Shown here: one piece after another, positions 1,734 to 47,843 of the stretch
Numbering within the stretch: the first letter of the stretch is position 1
Layout: each line of letters opens with the position of its first letter
Assembly (NCBI GenBank): GCA_030427295.1
Contig: JAUHWS010000003.1
Location: forward strand, 1 to 55,047
Reading direction: 5' to 3'
Source: a bacterium
GTDB lineage: Bacteria; Patescibacteriota; Gracilibacteria; UM-FILTER-43-11
DNA: 55,047 nt
Translations under genes and position numbers: made by a program
Notes under the pieces: generated by a model
Databases searched by the model: none
What the model was told of the DNA's origin: nothing
The model's input: the letters and a program-made list of their open reading frames with translations, nothing else

Positions 1734-1768
1734 TAGCTGGTAGCTTGTAGCTGTTAGCTTATAGACTG
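1734..1768. repeat. Degenerate 7-bp tandem repeat (TAGCTNN)
   Basis: Five consecutive heptamers: TAGCTGG, TAGCTTG, TAGCTGT, TAGCTTA, TAGACTG. The first four share TAGCT, and the fifth is a decayed copy. The same type of array occurs inside the type-2 elements at 14551-14778 and 32402-32630, so this stretch to about 1880 is a truncated type-2 core. Confidence 0.7.
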
Positions 1769-1877
1769 ATCAGTATTTGAATAACTCAAATGATCTCTTA
1801 ATTTAAGATGAAAAGGGAGTCATACCAACTGAATTTAACTCCCAGCAACCAGCTTCGAGCACCCAGCTCTTTGTGGA

Positions 1878-2150
1878 GGGTGGGTATATACTTGAGGGCG
1901 AGGTGGGTATATACTTTTTTCTCAATGACCAATTTCCAATGTCGCAATATCCAAATAAAGCTGAATTCCGAATGTCTAATTTTTAAACATTATTTGGAAT
2001 AAAATAGCTTAAATAAAACAAATTCTAACTCATTTGAACATTAGAAATTCAAGTTTAAGATTTATTTGGAAAGTATTGATAAGTATTGGAGTGAATTGAG
2101 GTGAATTAAGACATAGGTATATAGATGGGGAGAAGGTGGGTATATACTTC
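1878..2150. mobile_element. GTATATAC-bounded repeat element, type-1 core, copy 1
   Basis: One end has two GTATATAC palindromes (1884-1891 and 1907-1914) in the context GGTGGGTATATACTT. The other end has GGTATATAG (2116-2124) and GTATATAC (2140-2147). The core is AT-rich and matches the core of the copy at 9069-9340 on the opposite strand, for example AAACTTGAATTTCTAATGT. No coding capacity. The class is unknown and MITE-like is my inference. Confidence 0.7.
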
Positions 2151-9068: not shown

Positions 9069-9340
9069 GAAGTATATACTTACCTTCTGCCCAACTATAT
9101 ACCTAAGTCTTAAATTTCCAATTCACCCCAATACTCACCAATTCATTCCAAACAAATCCTAAACTTGAATTTCTAATGTCTAAATGATTTAGAATTTAAT
9201 TTATTTAAGCTGTTTATAATCAGAATAAGGTTTAAAAATAGAAGTCTTAGGCCTTGCGATTTAATTCGTAATTCGTAACTTGTAATTCGTAATTGAGACG
9301 AAAGTATATACCCACCTTCACTCGAAGTATATACCTAAGT
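9069..9340. mobile_element. GTATATAC-bounded repeat element, type-1 core, copy 2
   Basis: Left end GTATATAC 9072-9079 followed by an ACTATATACC motif. Right end has two GTATATAC (9304-9311 and 9327-9334) ending in CTAAGT. The core shares about 43 bases with the element at 47462-47683 on the opposite strand (around CTTAGGCCTTGCGATTTAAT) and other blocks with copy 1. A degenerate 7-bp array (AATTCGT units, 9263-9293) sits just inside the right end. Confidence 0.7.
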
Positions 9341-9507
9341 CACCTATCATGAACACCCCTGCCCCCCTGCCTACCGGCCACAAAGTGGGGCCCTTGGTCC
9401 AGGCAGGACTCTTAGAGAGAGGGAATTGATTGTGAGACTAACTTACAATCAATTCTCCTTCTTCGAAGGGGTGCCCGGAGGGCGGGATAGTTTTTCCCAC
9501 CCCTCAA

Positions 9508-9537
9508 TGAAGGTGACATTAGCCAATGTCGCCTTCA
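9508..9537. repeat. TGAAGG-arm palindrome
   Basis: TGAAGGTGACATT at 9508-9520 pairs with AATGTCGCCTTCA at 9525-9537 across an AGCC loop, with one G-T type mismatch. It is a member of the TGAAGGYGA family. Confidence 0.65.
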
Positions 9538-9581
9538 GGTTAACTAGCGGTTTGGGACCAGTATATACCTAAGTGTACCAT

Positions 9582-14550: not shown

Positions 14551-14778
14551 GAAGTATATACTCACCCTCTCTTTAACTATATACCTACCCTCTTCAAAAA
14601 GCTGGGAGCTCGGAGCTGGTAGCTGATAGTTAAATTCAGTGAAGATACCTCTCTATTTGTCTTAAATAAGTGATAATTTAAGTTTTTCTAAATACCAACT
14701 AGTCTACCAGCTAAAGGCTAATAGCTACCAGCTCGAATAAAGTATATACCCACCCTCACATGAAGTATATACCTAAGT
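14551..14778. mobile_element. GTATATAC-bounded repeat element, type-2 core
   Basis: Left end has GTATATAC (14554-14561) and CTATATACC (14578-14586). Right end has two GTATATAC (14742-14749, 14765-14772) ending CTAAGT. The core opens with a 7-bp array (AGCTGGG, AGCTCGG, AGCTGGT, AGCTGAT from 14600) and closes with an inverted form of it, so it can fold on itself. It matches the element at 32402-32630 on the other strand. Confidence 0.75.
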
Positions 14779-15036: not shown

Positions 15037-15283
15037 AGATCAAATGAATGGAATCATTCCGAACTTCAACATCCAAAACCATTCGTAAACCATTCCCCAA
15101 AGGGGCCCCGCTGGGGCGAACACTATACGCAGTCAATTCGCAACCCATCCGTCATCAAAGCATTGAAAAAAACTGAATTTTCAGGCAAAATGGTTTCTGT
15201 GCTGGGTCTATTGAGGATCTATTGTGGATCTTTAGATGCCTCAAAATCGACCGTCAGCTTACAAAGACCTTCTAAAGACATTC

Positions 15284-21740: not shown

Positions 21741-21896
21741 GGAGTATGGACTAAGGACTAAGTGAAAAACTATTCGTAATGAGATGATGCCCCCAGCCCC
21801 CTTTAGCAAGGGGGAGCCAAATACAGAATAAAACTATTCGTAAACTATTCGCAGCTATTCGTAACCCATCCGTAAACGATCCGTAACCCATCCGTA
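21741..21896. repeat. Heptamer and 11-bp periodic repeats upstream of ribH
   Basis: GGAGTAT, GGACTAA, GGACTAA units at 21741-21761, then a small C-run/G-run hairpin (about 21787-21818), then six units of about 11 bases of the ATTCGTAAACT / ATCCGTAACCC type from about 21833. The last unit contains the ribH ATG. Confidence 0.65.
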
Positions 21897-22376
21897 ATGA
21901 GCTTAATAAAAGACAATCTCTCGCAAGAAAATTTAACCCTCGATCAACCGGTGAAAATCGGGATCGTTCAAAGCGAGTATAATTCGGAAATCACGGATGC
22001 TTTGGCCGGCAGTTGTCTGGAAACTTTGGAGCGCGCCGGCGTGAGGATGTCAGACATCCTCCATCAAAAGGTCCCCGGGGCTTGGGAGTTGGCCATTGCC
22101 GCTCAGCGTATGGCTAAGGAGAATGAGCTCGATGCCATCATCACCTTGGGTTTGATTCTGCGAGGAGAGACCCCCCACTTTGATTTTATTGCAGCCGGGT
22201 GTGCAAACGGTATAATGCAAGTGAGCTTGAATGCCAATATCCCGGTTATCTTTGGTGTACTGACCACGGATTCACTCCAGCAAGCTCAAGACCGCATCAA
22301 AGGCGGGCGGCGTGGAGATAAGGGGGTGGAGGCGGCTCAAGCAGCGATCAAAATGATTCAACTGAACTCAAAATAA
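21897..22376 (+). CDS. ribH: 6,7-dimethyl-8-ribityllumazine synthase
   Basis: A 159-residue enzyme for the penultimate riboflavin step. IGIVQSEYN near the N-terminus, VPGAWELAIAA, LRGETPHFDF and PVIFGVLTTDSLQQA are the substrate-site motifs of lumazine synthase, and the conserved His of GETPHFD is present. It starts within the 11-bp repeat array. Only one base separates its stop from the STAS gene, so those two are cotranscribed. Confidence 0.94.
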   Translation: MSLIKDNLSQENLTLDQPVKIGIVQSEYNSEITDALAGSCLETLERAGVRMSDILHQKVPGAWELAIAAQRMAKENELDAIITLGLILRGETPHFDFIAAGCANGIMQVSLNANIPVIFGVLTTDSLQQAQDRIKGGRRGDKGVEAAQAAIKMIQLNSK

Positions 22377-22377
22377 A

Positions 22378-22743
22378 ATGCAAAAACTCAACATAACGAT
22401 CACAGATTTTCCCAATCTTGAAAAAGCTCAACTCGTTCGCTTTGAGGGCGATTTTGATGGGGTGGCGAAAGAAAACTTAGCGGACATTGAAGTAGCTGTC
22501 GAGAATTGCCCGGAGGACTGCCTCATGATCTTTGATTTTTCTCAACTGGACTACCTCAACAGCTTTGCCTTAGGCCAACTGGTCACCTGGCACAACATCA
22601 TTGAGGCTAAAAAAGGCAAAGTGGTGATTGTGGGCACCAATGATCACGTGAAAGATATCTTCACAGTTTTAGGCGTGGACAATATCTTCAAAACCTACTC
22701 CACCTTAGAGGAGGCCAACATGGATTTGCATCAGCATGTTTAG
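22378..22743 (+). CDS. STAS domain protein
   Basis: A 121-residue single STAS domain, as in anti-sigma-factor antagonists. DFSQLDYLNSFALGQLV carries Ser62 at the position phosphorylated in such proteins, and VVIVGTNDHVKDIFTVLGVDNIF is the following strand and helix. No partner kinase or phosphatase is in the window, so its role is open. It ends 2 bases before a repeat block. Confidence 0.8.
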   Translation: MQKLNITITDFPNLEKAQLVRFEGDFDGVAKENLADIEVAVENCPEDCLMIFDFSQLDYLNSFALGQLVTWHNIIEAKKGKVVIVGTNDHVKDIFTVLGVDNIFKTYSTLEEANMDLHQHV

Positions 22744-22745
22744 AG

Positions 22746-22996
22746 GAAGTATATACTCGTCCTCTCCTCAACTATATACTCATCCCCGCCAAAATGCTGC
22801 GTGTCATCTCAGCACCCTTTTCAGTAAGCGATTAGCGAATAGCGAGTAGCGATTAGCTAGAATACAGCTTAAAATAGGACTCATCACTCACTACTAGCCA
22901 CTCACCACTATAAATAGGACTTAATCGTTACTCGCTATTCGTTAGTCCTTGAGAAGAAAGTATATACCCACCTCAACCCAAAGTATATACCTAAGT
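22746..22996. mobile_element. GTATATAC-bounded repeat element, type-3 core, copy 1
   Basis: Left end GTATATAC (22749-22756) and ACTATATACT. Right end two GTATATAC (22960-22967, 22983-22990) ending CTAAGT. The core carries a 7-bp array (AGCGATT, AGCGAAT, AGCGAGT, AGCGATT; 22827-22858) identical to that in the element at 37034-37284, and complementary heptamers (CTCGCTATTCGTTAG) near the right end. Confidence 0.78.
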
Positions 22997-29045: not shown

Positions 29046-30377
29046 ATGAAAAAGGGAAAGAATGATTACAATAAATCCATTTGTTTCTACTTCCAAGTCC
29101 ATCAGCCATATCGACTGAGCAAGTGCAGTGCGTTTGAAATGGGTCAGAAGGACGAGTACTTCGATGGGCCGGAGGCCTATCGGAATAAGGCAATTTTTGA
29201 AAAAGTGGCCCAGAAGTGCTATTTGCCGACCAATCGATTGATGTTGGAGCTTTTGAAAAATCATCCTGAATTTAAAATCAGCTATTCGTTTTCGGGCGTC
29301 TTTTTGGAACAGTGCTTGGAATATGGGGAAATTGGAAAGGAGGTTCTCGACTCGTTCAAAGCTTTGGTCAAAACTGGGCAAGTGGAAGTGTTGAGTGAAA
29401 CGTACTATCATTCGCTCTCGTGGCTCTTTTCGAAGAAGGAGTTTGCTGAGCAAATCCTCAAGCATCAAAAACTGGTTCAAAAGATCTTTAAGAAGACGCC
29501 GACCGTGTTTCGGAATACGGAGCTCATCTACAGCAGTGAAATTGCAGAGTTCATTCGGGAAATGGGCTTCAAAGGCATTCTGGCCGAAGGCTGGGATTAT
29601 TATTTGGACTGGAAGAGTCCCAATTTTTTGTATCATCCGGAAAGAGTGACCTTGCATCCTGAAGATCAGAAGATTGCTAAGCAATATGGAATTCGCAAGC
29701 ATCCGTTCAAAAATATCAAGCTTTTGCTGAAGAATTATAAGCTCTCGGATGACATCGCGTTTCGATTTAGCAACAAAGGGTGGACCGAGTGGCCGCTGAC
29801 CACCGACAAGTATGCGGCCTGGGTGGATGCAGCCGAAGGCGACACCCTCAATTTGTTCATGGATTATGAAACCTTTGGAGAACATCAGTGGGAAGACACG
29901 GGGATTTTTGAGTTCATGCGACATCTACCTGAAGCCCTTTTGAAGCGAAATATTGGATTCAAAACCCCGTCAGAAACCATCCAATCGTATGAGGCGGTGG
30001 GAGAGATACACGTTCCCCATTTGATGAGTTGGGCGGACATGGAACGGGATTTATCGGCCTGGTGCAGCAATCAAATGCAGGAATCAGCTTTGCAACGCGT
30101 GTTTGAACTCGAACAAGAGGTGGAACAACTCCTCCCTCAAATGCACACAAAAGAGAGTGAGCGGTTGCAGCACGATTGGCGCAAATTACAGACCTCGGAT
30201 CATTTTTATTACATGTGCACCAAATATTGGAGTGATGGAGATGTGCATGCCTACTTTTCGTGCTATGAATCGCCGTATGAAGCCTACATCACTTACATGA
30301 ACACCCTGACGGATTTTGAAATGAAATTACAGCGATTAGCGACTAGCGAAGAGCGGCTAACAAAACAGTTGATCTAA
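29046..30377 (+). CDS. GH57 family alpha-amylase-like enzyme
   Basis: A 443-residue glycoside hydrolase of family 57. FYFQVHQPYRL is motif 1 with its His, VFRNTELIYSSEIAE holds the likely nucleophile Glu159, and LFMDYETFGEHQW holds the likely acid Asp273. GH57 includes amylases, branching enzymes and 4-alpha-glucanotransferases, and this length fits an alpha-amylase or glucanotransferase. No signal peptide, so it acts on internal glucan. It lies 87 bases behind the glycosyltransferase. Its C-terminal codons (RLATSEERL) come from a 7-bp repeat. Confidence 0.88.
   Translation: MKKGKNDYNKSICFYFQVHQPYRLSKCSAFEMGQKDEYFDGPEAYRNKAIFEKVAQKCYLPTNRLMLELLKNHPEFKISYSFSGVFLEQCLEYGEIGKEVLDSFKALVKTGQVEVLSETYYHSLSWLFSKKEFAEQILKHQKLVQKIFKKTPTVFRNTELIYSSEIAEFIREMGFKGILAEGWDYYLDWKSPNFLYHPERVTLHPEDQKIAKQYGIRKHPFKNIKLLLKNYKLSDDIAFRFSNKGWTEWPLTTDKYAAWVDAAEGDTLNLFMDYETFGEHQWEDTGIFEFMRHLPEALLKRNIGFKTPSETIQSYEAVGEIHVPHLMSWADMERDLSAWCSNQMQESALQRVFELEQEVEQLLPQMHTKESERLQHDWRKLQTSDHFYYMCTKYWSDGDVHAYFSCYESPYEAYITYMNTLTDFEMKLQRLATSEERLTKQLI
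30331..30358. repeat. 7-bp array inside the GH57 reading frame
   Basis: AGCGATT, AGCGACT, AGCGAAG, AGCGGCT, in frame with the last part of the GH57 gene. The array is of the same type as the intergenic ones. Confidence 0.6.
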
Positions 30378-30420: not shown

Positions 30421-32394
30421 ATGCCCAGAGCCATTGTGACCGGAAACGGAAATCTCCTCGCTTGTATCAATCAACACAATTTGATTGAGGATTTTTACTT
30501 CCCGTATGTGGGGATGGAAAATCAGATTGCCTTTGAACACTGGCATCGCTTGGGGGTGCATGTGGACCATCGCTTTTCGTGGTTGAGCGAGCCCAGCTGG
30601 ACCCATGAGATCGATTATTTGCATGAAACCTTGGTGACCGACAGTGTGGCTAAAAATGAGGAGCTACTTTTGACCATCAAATTCAATGATTTTGTTTATC
30701 CGAGTGAGGACTTTTTGATTCGAAAACTCTCCATCAAAAATAATGCTGATTATGATCGAGAATTGAAGGTTTATTTCAATCAAGACTTTCACTTATACGG
30801 CGATAAAATGCAGGATACGGCCTTTTATGAACCCGAACACCGCGCCATGGTTCACTATCGAAAGCGCCGATACTTTTGGATCAGTGGCATGCAAGGGTCT
30901 ATTAGCGGAGTGGATTCGTTCACGACGGGAAAAAGTGAGTACAATCATCTAGAGGGGACCTGGAAGGATGCTGAAGATGGTCATTTGCAAGAGCATCCCA
31001 TTGAACAAGGGTCGGTGGATTCGACGGTGGAGTTTCGGATGAATCTGAAGGCCAATCAAGAAAAACAATTGTATGTGTGGATTTGTGCGGGTAAAAACTT
31101 GTCGGAGGTGAAGCATTTGCATGACTACATTTTGAGTGAAAAGCCGGAAAAGTTGATGAACAATACCATTAATTATTGGATCAGTTGGGTGAATAAAGAA
31201 GCTCAACGGGAATTCTTGGTAGAACCCGAGCTCATGAAGCATTACAAACAAAGCCTTTTGATCATCCGGACTCAGATTGACAATCGAGGCGCCATCATCG
31301 CGGCAAATGACTCGGATATTATGAAATTTAATAAGGACACCTACTCGTACATGTGGCCTCGTGATGGGGCCTGGGTGAGCTTGGCCTTGGACCGAGCGGG
31401 TTACGGTGAAATCACCAAGCGTTTTTTTGCCTTCTGCGCCGATAGCATGACCGAGGATGGTTATCTCCTCCACAAATACAATCCGGATGAGTCGGTGGGT
31501 TCCTCATGGCATTCGTGGTATAAGGATGGTGAAATGCAACTGCCAATTCAGGAAGATGAAACCGCCATTGTGACTTACGCCTTGTGGAATCACTGGCTGT
31601 ATTATAAGGATATTGAGTTCATTCAAGACATGTATGAACCACTCATTCGAGCGGCTGGGAATTTTATGATGCATTTTATCGATGAGGAAACGGGCCTTCC
31701 CTTACCCACGTATGATTTGTGGGAACAGGAGCGTGGGGTTTTTACTTACACCACCGCTTGCGTGTACGCCGGCTTGGAAGCGGCTTATCGGCTTTCGGCA
31801 ATACTGGGCCACTTCAATCATTCGCATCGGTACAAGGAAGCGGCAGAGCGCATCAAGCAAGCCATGCTCACGCATCTTTATGATGCGGAGGAAGATCGTT
31901 TTTTGAAACGTATCGAAATCGACCCACACACCCGCGCGGTGACCAAGGATTATGGGCTGGATGCCAGTATGCATGCCGTGTGGATGATGGGCGTGTTGCC
32001 TGCGGAGGATGACATGGTGGTCAAAACAAATCGCGCCTTATTTGAGAAATTAAGTGTGAAGGAAGGGCCGATTGGAGGTTTGACTCGGAATGAACATGAT
32101 CATTATCAGCGCGTCCATGGGCACTATGGGGATGTTCAAGGAAACCCTTGGATCATCACGACCTTGTGGCACGCACAGTGGCTGATGGCCATTGCTAAAA
32201 ATAGAGAGGACTTGAAGGAGGCAGAAAAATACTTACATTGGGCGATTGAACGAGCCAACTCGGCCGGTATCATGCCTGAACAGGTGAATCCGTTTAACGG
32301 CGATCCCCTTTCGGTAGCCCCGCTGACTTGGAGTCACGCGACCTTTGTGGATTCGGTGTTGAAGTATGATGAGAGGATGAAGGAATTGTCTTAA
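30421..32394 (+). CDS. GH15 family glucoamylase/glucodextranase-like enzyme
   Basis: A 657-residue glycoside hydrolase of family 15: an N-terminal beta domain (to about residue 260) and an (alpha/alpha)6 barrel. Barrel motifs visible are SYMWPRDGAWVSLALD, SSWHSWYKDGEMQLPIQEDE, LPTYDLWEQERGVFTYT with a likely catalytic Glu, and MPEQVNPFNGDPLSVAPLTWSHA near the end. It removes terminal glucose from alpha-glucan. No signal peptide. It is third in the glucan cluster, 43 bases behind GH57. The order GT4, GH57, GH15 resembles archaeal-type glycogen loci. Confidence 0.9.
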   Translation: MPRAIVTGNGNLLACINQHNLIEDFYFPYVGMENQIAFEHWHRLGVHVDHRFSWLSEPSWTHEIDYLHETLVTDSVAKNEELLLTIKFNDFVYPSEDFLIRKLSIKNNADYDRELKVYFNQDFHLYGDKMQDTAFYEPEHRAMVHYRKRRYFWISGMQGSISGVDSFTTGKSEYNHLEGTWKDAEDGHLQEHPIEQGSVDSTVEFRMNLKANQEKQLYVWICAGKNLSEVKHLHDYILSEKPEKLMNNTINYWISWVNKEAQREFLVEPELMKHYKQSLLIIRTQIDNRGAIIAANDSDIMKFNKDTYSYMWPRDGAWVSLALDRAGYGEITKRFFAFCADSMTEDGYLLHKYNPDESVGSSWHSWYKDGEMQLPIQEDETAIVTYALWNHWLYYKDIEFIQDMYEPLIRAAGNFMMHFIDEETGLPLPTYDLWEQERGVFTYTTACVYAGLEAAYRLSAILGHFNHSHRYKEAAERIKQAMLTHLYDAEEDRFLKRIEIDPHTRAVTKDYGLDASMHAVWMMGVLPAEDDMVVKTNRALFEKLSVKEGPIGGLTRNEHDHYQRVHGHYGDVQGNPWIITTLWHAQWLMAIAKNREDLKEAEKYLHWAIERANSAGIMPEQVNPFNGDPLSVAPLTWSHATFVDSVLKYDERMKELS

Positions 32395-32401
32395 TTTTTT
32401 A

Positions 32402-32630
32402 GGATGGGTATATACTTGAGCGTGAGGTGGGTATATACTTTTTGGGAGCTGTTAGCTATTAGCTTTTAGCTGGTAGACTAGTCGGTATTTAGGATAACCC
32501 AAATTACCTCTTATTTAAGATAAGTAGAGAGTTATCTTAACTGAATTTAACTATCAGCTACCAGCTCTGAGCTCCCAGCTTTTTTCAGAGGATAGGTATA
32601 TAGTTGGGAAGAAGGTAAGTATATACTTCT
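32402..32630. mobile_element. GTATATAC-bounded repeat element, type-2 core, inverted copy
   Basis: Two GTATATAC at the left end (32408-32415 and 32431-32438), GGTATATAG and GTATATAC (32619-32626) at the right. It is the reverse complement of the element at 14551-14778, with shared core blocks such as GATAGTTAAATTCAGT and ACTAGTCTACCAGCT. The 7-bp arrays at 32447-32476 and 32552-32580 are inverse to each other. It fills the gap between GH15 and the methyltransferase. Confidence 0.78.
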
Positions 32631-35058: not shown

Positions 35059-37029
35059 ATGGCCGAAGCAGCCCGAAAAATCGAAGGGATTGATGCGGAC
35101 GATGAAAATCCAGAGAAAATTCGGGAGCGCGAAGAGATGGATGACATTCGGGATCAGATCAGTGACGTGGCGGATCAATCGCTGCAAGAAGGAGTGATCG
35201 ATTTGGAAGCCCATCGTTTTTACAAACAGCTTTCTCGAGGCCAGGCGGTGAGTAAGGAATTGGAGAAAAAAGACAAGCTGAAAGGCATGCTGGATTTTGC
35301 CAAGGAATATGCCATCAAGTCGATCAAGATTCAACAAAAACTCGAAAAAGAAGTGCCGGCCAATGATGGAAAGTATTTGATGGAAAAGTTGGTGACAGAC
35401 AACATCGATTTTATGAAACAAGCCGATGCGGTGGATCGTTTGATTAACGAAAAAATTGACCGCATCAAACAAGATATTAAATTATTTGGTGAGTTGAGTG
35501 ATCATCCCTATACGAAGGAGTTAAGCATAACCGTCTCGGATAAAATCAAATTGGGGGATGAGAAGAGTTTTTTGGAAGCCAAGACTCCTGATCGTCGGGC
35601 TTTTTTGAAAGCAGTTCAAGAGCTTTTTTGGAAGAAGGAAGTGGAGGAGGCCATGGATGAAAAAAATGCCGAAAAACTCACGCGGATTTATGAAGCGAAA
35701 CTACGACGACGATTGTGTAATTCTCAAGGAAAAAATGGTTCGATGGGTCAGAAGACCTTTAATGCCTTTCTGGAGGGTTTCAAGCAAATGGCGGAAGAGA
35801 AGAATTTTGTGGGGATGGAATACTGGCACAAGGATTTTGAGAACCAGATGAAAGATCGGGATGCATTTTTTGATGAAATGCGCCACACCGTCAGAGAAGA
35901 TGGCTTGCGCGAGTTGGAAGGGAGCGTTCATTTTATTGGCTTTACGGAGTTAAAAGAGCGCTACAAAGCCATGCTCAAGCCTGACTCAAAAGAATCCAAG
36001 CGGCTGGAGAATCAGTATGGGGGAAAATTGGAAGAATACCGCAACGTCTGCGCTAGTGACCACAGTATCAAAGCCTTTAAGGAATGGTTCGCCGCCTTGC
36101 CGCTGAAAGGCAGATACACCGCTCGAGATCGGATTGATACTTATGAAGGCATGGGAAGGCTCATGGAACAGTGGGAGCGGATCAAAAAACTACCACCCGA
36201 ACAGCAGTTGTTTATGGAGCAGAAGCGAGATGATCCCAATGCGAATTGGGGCTACACTGAATTCCAAAAACAACTGGAGGAATTTGAAAGGCAGGGGGTG
36301 GGGGTGAATCTTGAGTCAGCGGAAGCCGAGGAAGCCCTGGCTGGCTTGAATGATTCGGAAAAACGGGCCGTTTTGAGTGCTCGAAAAGTGTTGATGAAAC
36401 TGGGCCAAACCAATGTAGATCAGATGGCACAGGTGATTCACTTTATGACCGATGGTTTATCTCAAGCTCAAATCGACCAGATGGATCATGATCAAGAGGT
36501 GGCGGCCGAAATTGAACGGCTTGAAGCCGAGCAGGAGTCTCTGATTGAGCCATCGGCCAATCAAGCAGATTATCGGCTGCGAGAGGTGCCCACTCCGGTT
36601 CAAAATGAGTTAGAGGAGATGGCTCAAGAGGAAGATGCGGAGGTTGATCCAGCCCTTGAAATTGATGAAAGGACGGATAACAACCATCCTGAAGCGGAGC
36701 AGGAAAAACTGAAGCGACTGGAACGGTCAGAAGAATTGAAGGTGAGCAAAGTGAGCGCCTTTAAGAAGGTTCAAAACCGACAAGGCGAACGGAACATGGA
36801 AGTGATGGTGAATGATATGGAGAGCGCCCGCAGTTTTGCTATGGAGGATAATCGCAAGGCGGTCCGCTCAGAAGCGCGAGGGGGGAAAGATAAGGTGTCG
36901 TTTACCTTTGACATGGGGAGCGGCAAACGCAAGTTCAATGCCAAAAGTTTGAATGCCTTAGAGAAACTCCTACGGGCCAAACGCTCCGCGAATGATTCGA
37001 ATTATGGAAATGTGGACAAGGCGTCTTAG
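35059..37029 (+). CDS. Large charged helical protein, unknown
   Basis: A 656-residue acidic protein without signal peptide or membrane segments. It is dominated by Glu, Lys, Asp and Arg and reads as long helices, with likely coiled-coil stretches at about 70-170, 240-350 and 475-560. The C-terminus has a short FTFDMGSGKRKF strand and a basic tail. No family is recognised. It may be a structural or scaffold protein, but that is a guess. It starts directly behind a 7-bp repeat array and is followed at once by a GTATATAC element, and appears monocistronic. Confidence 0.75.
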   Translation: MAEAARKIEGIDADDENPEKIREREEMDDIRDQISDVADQSLQEGVIDLEAHRFYKQLSRGQAVSKELEKKDKLKGMLDFAKEYAIKSIKIQQKLEKEVPANDGKYLMEKLVTDNIDFMKQADAVDRLINEKIDRIKQDIKLFGELSDHPYTKELSITVSDKIKLGDEKSFLEAKTPDRRAFLKAVQELFWKKEVEEAMDEKNAEKLTRIYEAKLRRRLCNSQGKNGSMGQKTFNAFLEGFKQMAEEKNFVGMEYWHKDFENQMKDRDAFFDEMRHTVREDGLRELEGSVHFIGFTELKERYKAMLKPDSKESKRLENQYGGKLEEYRNVCASDHSIKAFKEWFAALPLKGRYTARDRIDTYEGMGRLMEQWERIKKLPPEQQLFMEQKRDDPNANWGYTEFQKQLEEFERQGVGVNLESAEAEEALAGLNDSEKRAVLSARKVLMKLGQTNVDQMAQVIHFMTDGLSQAQIDQMDHDQEVAAEIERLEAEQESLIEPSANQADYRLREVPTPVQNELEEMAQEEDAEVDPALEIDERTDNNHPEAEQEKLKRLERSEELKVSKVSAFKKVQNRQGERNMEVMVNDMESARSFAMEDNRKAVRSEARGGKDKVSFTFDMGSGKRKFNAKSLNALEKLLRAKRSANDSNYGNVDKAS

Positions 37030-37033
37030 GGTG

Positions 37034-37284
37034 GAGGTATATACTCACCCTCTGCCCAACTATATACCTATCCTCTTCAGAATGCTGGGGTTCATCTCAG
37101 TACCTTTTTCAACAAGCGATTAGCGAATAGCGAGTAGCGATTAGCTGAAATAGATCTTAGAATAGAGCTAGACGCTATACACTGATCGCTACACGCTCAA
37201 AAAATCAACTCGTAATTAGTCACTCGTAATTCGTAATTAAGAATAAAGTATATACCCACCTCAACCCAAAGTATATACACAAGT
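37034..37284. mobile_element. GTATATAC-bounded repeat element, type-3 core, copy 2
   Basis: Left end GTATATAC (37037-37044) plus ACTATATACC. Right end two GTATATAC (37248-37255 and 37271-37278). Its 7-bp array (37115-37146) is identical in sequence to that at 22827-22858. A second heptamer stretch of the ACTCGTAATT type lies at about 37207-37232. Same orientation as the copy at 22746-22996. Confidence 0.78.
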
Positions 37285-41870: not shown

Positions 41871-42060
41871 AAGGACTAAGGACTATGGACTAAGAACTAA
41901 GCGTTAAACTATTTGTGAGACAATTCGCAACCCATTCGTAAACTATTCGTAAACCATTCGTAAACTATTCGTAAACCATCCGTAAACTATTCGTAAACCA
42001 TCCGTAAACTATTCGTAAACCATCCGTAAAACAACTCGTCATTAGTAACTCGTCATTAAA
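41871..42060. repeat. 7-bp array followed by ten 11-bp units
   Basis: GGACTAA-type heptamers at 41874-41902, then ten 11-base units from 41923 to 42032 alternating ATTCGTAAACC / ATTCGTAAACT and ATCCGTAAACT, so a 22-base superperiod is visible. A short ACTCGTCATTAGTA stretch follows. The array ends 17 bases before the next start. Confidence 0.8.
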
Positions 42061-47447: not shown

Positions 47448-47461
47448 TTGGGGTGTGGGGT

Positions 47462-47683
47462 GGGTATATACTTTCCTCTCAATTACGAATTACGAGTTAC
47501 GAATTACGAATTAAATCGCAAGGCCTAAGACTTCTATTTTTAAACCTTATTCAGATTCTAAATAGCTTAAATAAAACAAATTTTAACTCATTGAGTACCT
47601 GCCTGCCGGCAGGCAGGTTGGAATGAATTGGGGTGAATTAAGACATGAGTATATAGATGGAGAGAGGGTGAGTATATACTTCA
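47462..47683. mobile_element. GTATATAC-bounded repeat element, type-1 core, inverted copy
   Basis: Only one GTATATAC at the left (47464-47471), GTATATAG (47649-47656) and GTATATAC (47672-47679) at the right. The left half matches copy 2 (9069-9340) on the other strand for about 43 bases, and the right half matches copy 1. Where copy 1 has about 50 further core bases, this copy has the palindrome at 47597-47618 instead. Confidence 0.75.
47597..47618. repeat. Palindrome ACCTGCCTGCC/GGCAGGCAGGT
   Basis: A perfect 22-bp palindrome, inside the type-1 GTATATAC element. In one frame it reads as CLPAGR. I recall peptides of the LPAGRQAG type from CPR genomes, which would fit a dispersed palindrome of this kind; that is memory, not a search. 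Confidence 0.6.
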
Positions 47684-47751
47684 TGTCTGATGTCTAATGG
47701 GCTAATGTCTGATTTAGATCATGCGTACTACGTAATCCTTAAACAAAAAAC

Positions 47752-47843
47752 CATTCGTTAACTATTCGCAGCTATCCGCAACCTATTCGTATTCGTAAAC
47801 CATTCATGAGACAATTCGTAAAGCTATTCGTTACACGATCCGG
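47752..47843. repeat. 11-bp periodic array upstream of the SLH gene
   Basis: Imperfect units such as CATTCGTTAAC, TATTCGCAGCT, ATCCGCAACC and CAATTCGTAAAG. It is the most degenerate of the 11-bp arrays and lies 69 bases before the ATG. Confidence 0.55.

Follow-up and report, generated by a model that had tools for sequence, protein, structure and literature searches.

Likely mobile non-coding repeats with twin palindromic ends in a Patescibacteria genome, and a candidate double AbrB/MazE regulator

What is the sequence that lies directly behind a STAS-domain gene in this contig, and that recurs along it with shared ends and differing middles? The window, i.e. the whole stretch of 55,047 nucleotides analysed here, is contig C65 of a MAG of 1,481,779 bases in 98 contigs (92% complete). 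The best match of its glutamyl-tRNA synthetase is in a Candidatus Peregrinibacteria MAG (65% over nearly the full length), and, judged from this sequence, the host is a member of the Patescibacteria close to Peregrinibacteria.

The initial annotation had named nine places in the window (seven full copies, a truncated core and a solo end) and interpreted them as a MITE- or REP-like family recognised by its ends, an interpretation that is partly supported by the present analysis. All nine places are present in the sequence. Six of the seven copies are complete, but the copy given as 47462-47683 has three sites, lacks the outer right one and runs straight into a downstream module. The truncated core at 1734-1880 is a type-2 core without the outer right sites, and the solo end at 9561 was found. 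The features of the window are as follows.

1735..1873, minus strand: type-2 core without right end sites, chained behind the right end of the element at 1881..2149
1881..2149, minus strand: complete type-1 element, inner spacing 210
9070..9337, plus strand: complete type-1 element, inner spacing 209
9348..9487, plus strand: module M_CATGAACACC, directly after the element at 9070..9337 (right border provisional)
9561..9568, plus strand: solo end palindrome, preceding a TCATTCC-type module
14552..14775, plus strand: complete type-2 element, inner spacing 165
22747..22993, plus strand: complete type-3 element (the starting finding), inner spacing 188, starting 3 bp after the stop codon of the STAS-domain gene 22378-22743
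32405..32628, minus strand: complete type-2 element, inner spacing 165, right end ~10 bp after the stop codon of the gene 30421-32394
37035..37281, plus strand: complete type-3 element, inner spacing 188, starting 5 bp after the stop codon of the gene 35059-37029
37083..37112, plus strand: putative terminator-like hairpin and T-tract (pattern match), just inside the left end of the element at 37035..37281
47461..47681, minus strand: type-1 element lacking the last 23-bp unit, so that three of the four sites are present

The window also holds arrays of an 11-base tandem unit (about ACYATYCGTAA) at 15122-15177, 21830-21898, 41898-42041 and 47747-47791. By a strict count (at least four TCGTAA/CCGTAA steps of 10-12 bases) there are two such arrays in the genome, at window positions 21859 and 41936, both shortly before a gene. 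REP-like palindromes of the form GAAGGYGAC...GTCRCCTTC are found at 9509, 9688 and 27471 of the window, and nine times genome-wide by the pattern used.

Architecture, copy number and boundaries

The element unit is AASTATATACYYACCYT, built on the 8-bp palindrome GTATATAC; the inner left site is mostly CTATATAC. An element consists of two units 23 bp apart, a core, and a second pair with this spacing; all four units have one orientation. The inner palindrome had been placed about 15 bases further in, which is right for the linker (15 bp), while the distance from palindrome to palindrome is 23 bp. Genome-wide, 273 of the 280 same-strand site pairs are at exactly 23 bp, a count that includes some pairs twice, because a palindromic site matches on either strand. 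The inner spacing clusters at 165, 188 and about 210. The three core types described earlier hold for the window, but four exist in the whole genome: type 3 (39 copies and one relative), type 1 (31), type 2 (19) and type 4 (11), the last with no member among the window copies.

Read by eye, the core arms resemble period-7 repeat tracts. In relatives (L189, L193, L194), period-7 tracts such as GTAGTTAGTAGTTA and ATTACAAATTATGAATTACGAG are present shortly 3' of the stop codons of orthologous genes, without GTATATAC; these may be an older form of the core arms.

Complete elements were located by a scan for four sites, each with at least 6 of 7 matches to TATATAC. The first scans for site pairs and quadruples covered 700,560 bases, and the later ones the whole genome. 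The whole-genome scan gave 101 complete elements, two of which overlap (C1:18609 and C1:18632). They make up 1.8% of the genome and are present on 47 of the 98 contigs. On 23 contigs an element site lies within 300 bp of the contig end, as expected if the repeats broke the assembly. The density is one complete element per 14.7 kb, so the earlier figure of one copy per about 8 kb does not extend to the genome, and the window is denser than the average. The paired site STATATAC-N15-STATATAC has 313 matches (163 forward and 150 reverse) and its reversed control pattern none. A large dispersed family with shared ends and differing cores, as first proposed, is thus borne out.

In 287 other genomes of the class, the sole congener included, the paired site was not found once. 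The single unit, with up to one mismatch, has 253 matches in the own genome, 1-2 matches in 4 of 57 relatives, and none in the congener or in 16 other genomes of the family. The strict two-site pattern gave no match in the GTDB r220 contigs (a set to which the own genome possibly does not belong) and none in viral contigs, and a search of plasmids and phages with one type-3 copy as query was also negative; a plasmid or phage origin was set aside on these grounds. Among the literature matches listed, which cover subscription papers thinly, no description of the repeat family was found by title or by the start of the abstract.

Identity between copies at unrelated loci reaches 95%, and the alignments of such copies break off at the end palindromes. 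Considering only those alignments between copies that span the element (1151 of 1982), 703 begin within one base of the leading A of the first palindrome and 924 finish 0-7 bases past the last one. The boundaries are therefore sharp at unrelated loci, as in mobile elements. Together with the absence of the paired site from the congener and the class genomes searched, this argues against ancestral intergenic DNA, in line with the initial annotation. The search for target duplications, recommended at the outset, showed that in the 101 elements matching flanks were no more frequent than with shuffled pairing, small counts aside. The comparison of orthologous gaps gave one comparable locus, behind a gene that we take to be ClpB-like: the gap is 277 bp with an element here and 34-46 bp with a short hairpin in the congener, so the element is lacking there, but the sequences differ as well. 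The other 14 gaps syntenic with the congener hold no element in the own genome. We conclude that the repeats are likely non-autonomous mobile elements.

Placement relative to genes and constraint on the palindromes

None of the 101 elements overlaps a predicted gene (borders are from our own hexamer predictor rather than an annotation), in agreement with the earlier claim that the copies always lie between genes. The contexts are ++ (31), -- (22), convergent (30), divergent (8) and contig ends (10), compared with 321, 337, 130 and 210 for the ++, --, convergent and divergent background gaps of at least 20 bp. Divergent gaps are under-used, with 8 of 91 elements versus 210 of 998 gaps.

For the 91 elements with both neighbours (the 10 of 101 lacking a gene on one or both sides were left out), 50 of the 113 sides that face a gene 3' end are no more than 16 bp from the stop codon; for the sides that face a 5' end the count is 2 of 69. 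When each element is slid uniformly within its own gap, the mean is 17.7 and the maximum 28 (5000 trials). In gaps with more than 50 spare bases, 39 sides are near the stop codon, versus a mean of 8.4 and a maximum of 18 (3000 trials). Some elements overlap the stop codon by its last base or bases. The preference depends on the end and on the core type. For type 3, a stop codon lies within 16 bp of the left end in 16/21 cases and of the right end in 9/28; type 2 leans the opposite way (left end 3/11, right end 7/14); in type 1, for which no terminator was noted, the values are 8/17 for the left end and 1/14 for the right.

A hairpin followed by a T-tract is located just inside the left end of type 3, with -3 kcal/mol or lower in 24 of 40 copies, and a second one forms the downstream module M_CCGAG. 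The end-specific placement, along with the type-3 hairpin, suggests use as gene-end cassettes, and the elements probably serve the 3' ends of genes in this way. Between positions 30000 and 49000 of the window, terminator-like sites are not in excess (19, versus 20.1 in shuffles). The cores fold moderately: for 40 of the 101, the mean z values by length class and strand range from -1.4 to -3.6, with -0.7 for control gaps (30 of 151). Rfam gave no match over the window at gathering thresholds, and a structured RNA was rejected on this account and on that of the moderate folding.

From these data the repeats could be seen as terminator or insulator cassettes maintained by the host, selected for ending transcription and spread by recombination or gene conversion. 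The stop-codon placement, the scarcity in divergent gaps, the terminator-like parts of type 3 and M_CCGAG, and the short hairpin found in the congener in place of the element all agree with such an origin. We nevertheless consider it quite improbable, as absence from the congener and the class, and 95%-identical copies at unrelated loci with alignments ending at the sites, point to transposition, while 16 of the 40 type-3 copies do not reach a hairpin of -3 kcal/mol.

Because the quadruple scan itself demanded at least 6 of 7 matches to TATATAC, conservation of the palindromes was tested again from the cores alone. At 574 site positions predicted from core profiles, 433 palindromes are perfect, 24 have one or two mismatches, and 117 show no recognisable site. 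Cores of one type are 72-83% identical, and we estimate that about a third of the palindromes would be perfect if they drifted like the cores. In 48 disjoint nearest pairs, 31 of 1536 palindrome bases differ (2.0%), in comparison with 1205 of 8754 core bases (13.8%) and 398 of 1440 bases in the 15-bp linkers (28%); one mis-registered pair, C70:7037/C76:29046, was kept and accounts for 8 of the 31 palindrome differences. The linker divergence of 31 nearest pairs is 0.23 on the left and 0.31 on the right, close to the 0.28 and 0.33 of random copies. Spacing and palindromes are thus held, with the linker sequence free or exchanged. The palindromes are under constraint, and simple copying is insufficient as an explanation.

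The core halves fall into four groups on the left and ten on the right, and behind the type-3 left half there are six different right arms, with the spacing kept at 186-191 bp in 33 of 40 copies. Chains occur, in which two cores have one site pair in common. All 24 copies of M_CCGAG stand behind an end site (one of them degenerate), as do seven of the eight pattern matches of M_CATGAACACC, the eighth being unrelated by inspection. Accordingly, the palindromes could be places of crossover that allow cores, linkers and downstream modules to be exchanged between loci, and the swapped arms, the chains, the position of M_CCGAG and the near-random linkers of the nearest cores are all consistent with this. 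Mantel tests gave a mixed picture. In types 1 and 3 the right linker is uncoupled from the core despite coupling of the last 15 core bases, as crossover at the sites would predict. But uncoupling also affects the first core bases (types 2, 3 and 4), and type 4 has a coupled right linker; the palindromes are thus not the only points of breakage. Exchange restricted to the palindromes is not cleanly supported, nor is any recombinase tied to the sites, and we regard this explanation as very unlikely.

Candidate regulator and mobilising enzymes

The palindrome GTATATAC occurs 362 times in the genome, compared with 31 expected from base composition and 1-34 occurrences for twelve other palindromes of similar make-up. 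Five occurrences are isolated, and four of these are element remnants or contig-end sites by inspection. The main use of the word outside the elements is in triple arrays with 11-bp steps, present at five places. All five have a gene start at most about 170 bp downstream, and for three of them the stop codon of another gene is no more than 32 bp away. One is 20 bp before C9:8002-8334, which encodes 110 residues with two AbrB/MazE domains (PF04014, E = 4e-13). The middle palindrome of this array contains the TATATA of a promoter-like site, TTGACT-N17-TATATA. The remaining arrays adjoin genes for a presumably TspO-like protein and for other proteins. The array is found directly before the gene of the candidate regulator itself, as would be expected of an AbrB/MazE operator.

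The genome has only one other AbrB/MazE gene. In front of this gene and of its homologue in the congener, immediately ahead of the start codon, stands a different double palindrome, TTACGTAA, so autoregulatory sites seem usual for the family. By analogy, the double AbrB protein likely reads GTATATAC. The contig C9, with the regulator gene, holds no element. The double palindrome of the other AbrB/MazE gene (given as AATTACGTAATTAATTACGTAATT) was observed at 14 places (e.g. C88:742, C69:35335, C44:3491), often before genes, the single-domain AbrB gene among them, and also at the congener's homologue (L184); these places are likely a second AbrB regulon.

Among matches in 5.8 billion proteins, by a search that reaches only proteins of similar length with exact words in common, the query was the only double form; each of the 29 other hits is 60-89 residues long and covers no more than 51% of it by matches. 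The single-sequence model of the protein (mean pLDDT 60) shows two similar halves of strands and a short helix and is too weak for a fold search. By sequence, no clear relative was detected among solved structures.

Four other class genomes, which lack such elements, also have pairs of GTATATAC at 11-bp steps. In two of the four such a pair precedes small genes, which we assume to be of the toxin-antitoxin type. Other proteins can thus use the word. Another of the four, the distant genome G085, has eight such places, with the sequence GTATATACAATGTATATAC, and the four places that were read (L174, L177, L179, L181) lie 2-46 bp after the stop of an open frame. The position of GTATATAC at stop codons may not be unique to the own genome.

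The explanation we favour, at somewhat less than even confidence and from sequence evidence, is that about 100 complete, non-coding, likely mobile repeats, absent from the class genomes searched, have twin GTATATAC-type ends that are likely bound by the double AbrB/MazE protein, which would hold the ends together. An enzyme acting in trans would insert the element behind a stop codon. The double AbrB protein would then bind all four palindromes and so pair the two ends, and the element would end or insulate transcription as a gene-3'-end cassette. A search of the genome (92% complete, 98 contigs) revealed neither a mobilising enzyme nor an autonomous copy.

A stronger version, which we think unlikely, is that the operator of a single private regulator, a double AbrB protein known from this organism alone, has been carried by a mobile repeat to about 100 gene ends, and that the protein clamps each element into a loop that closes the 3' border of the transcription unit, giving a genome-wide insulator system. 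The type lengths of 165, 188, 210 and 211 have a common phase near 11.35 bp, which is reached by 1.6% of random quadruples. Strict helical phasing of the inner spacings was rejected, because the agreement is only approximate and the within-type indels are mixed, several being out of helical phase.

Without any role for the AbrB protein, the repeats would be plain non-autonomous mobile DNA, MITE- or REPIN-like, with palindromes that are the binding sites of an unseen transposase and an accidental or secondary likeness to the array before the AbrB gene. Sharp ends, dispersal and the exclusively intergenic location would follow; the palindromes would be conserved since only lineages with intact ends would spread, and Y1/RAYT genes are present in several copies. 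We hold this to be possible but doubtful, considering that the word is nearly absent elsewhere in the genome except for the five arrays beside genes, and that the available enzymes are not linked to it. The initial annotation had proposed to look for a REP-type transposase or a resolvase with such ends around its own gene; at the seven Y1/RAYT loci no element site scoring at least 14 is found within 1.5 kb, and one locus has a site cut off by a contig end at 0.9 kb.

Five of these loci (C41:2926, C45:9159, C4:4691, C50:2 and C73:49821) belong to one RAYT-like Y1 transposase family with identities up to 93%, and have another palindrome in common, GAAGGCG...CGCCTTC, in or near the gene. RAYT/IS200-like mobilisation is accordingly not supported as linked to the elements, although a copy may have been lost from the assembly. 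Neither the multi-copy proteins nor the Y1, tyrosine and serine recombinase families of the 92% complete MAG include a related autonomous transposon. The genome has five tyrosine and one serine recombinase family matches. The gene C4:3214-4134, presumably XerC-like, starts about 0.2 kb behind an element, and the large serine recombinase gene C16:12570-14201 is about 2.7 kb from one. Beyond this proximity nothing ties either to the sites, and both were discarded as mobilisers. The serine recombinase gene lies beside a primase-like gene (by eye) in a contig of lower G+C, and C16:11471-16911 is probably a small integrated element.

If the double AbrB protein does bind the ends, the family would be a compact natural case of rewiring by a mobile element in a small genome, in which, as far as the searches went, only one species has the regulator and its several hundred sites. 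In eukaryotes, it is well known that mobile elements carrying transcription-factor sites rewire gene control; in bacteria, to our knowledge, this has rarely been documented. The stop-codon placement and the near-invariant palindromes make the regulator idea directly testable.

Comparison with known systems

REPINs are short, extragenic REP doublets with variable sequence between conserved ends, thought to be moved by RAYT transposases that are described as single-copy per type, and hundreds of conserved palindromes occur per genome, also in tandem clusters (PMC3116915). Our elements are likewise short and extragenic, with hundreds of conserved palindromes, a variable middle and tandem clusters. 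They differ in having four palindromic sites in pairs 23 bp apart, where REPINs have two inverted REPs. The site pairs are direct at both ends and the cores fold moderately, and an inverted pair of palindromes forming one hairpin was not found. No RAYT gene is flanked by the element palindrome at any of the seven Y1 loci, and one RAYT family is present here in five copies rather than one.

MITEs, including Correia and NEMIS, are non-coding, a few hundred bp long, sharp-ended, intergenic and present in many copies, all of which applies to the elements described here. Their ends, however, are not terminal inverted repeats: the 23-bp units are direct repeats, inverted only within the 8-bp palindromes. 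Neither a parent transposon nor a target-site duplication was found, the latter in 101 elements and with one empty site compared. DNA uptake sequences of Neisseria and Haemophilus are short words that recur by the hundred at the ends of genes, in part within terminator hairpins, and the element word resembles them in these respects, the hairpins here being terminator-like. It differs in being confined to structured elements and five arrays instead of being scattered singly (5 isolated of 362).

The TAACTGA heptamer repeats of Beggiatoaceae are simple period-7 direct arrays between genes, mostly just upstream of start codons (PMC4679880). The likeness is in the period-7 tracts between genes, which here are varied heptamers that make up the core arms of framed elements, many of these elements being located after stop codons. 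Taken together, the elements are possibly a previously undescribed variant of the REPIN/MITE kind, which may be coupled to a private regulator.
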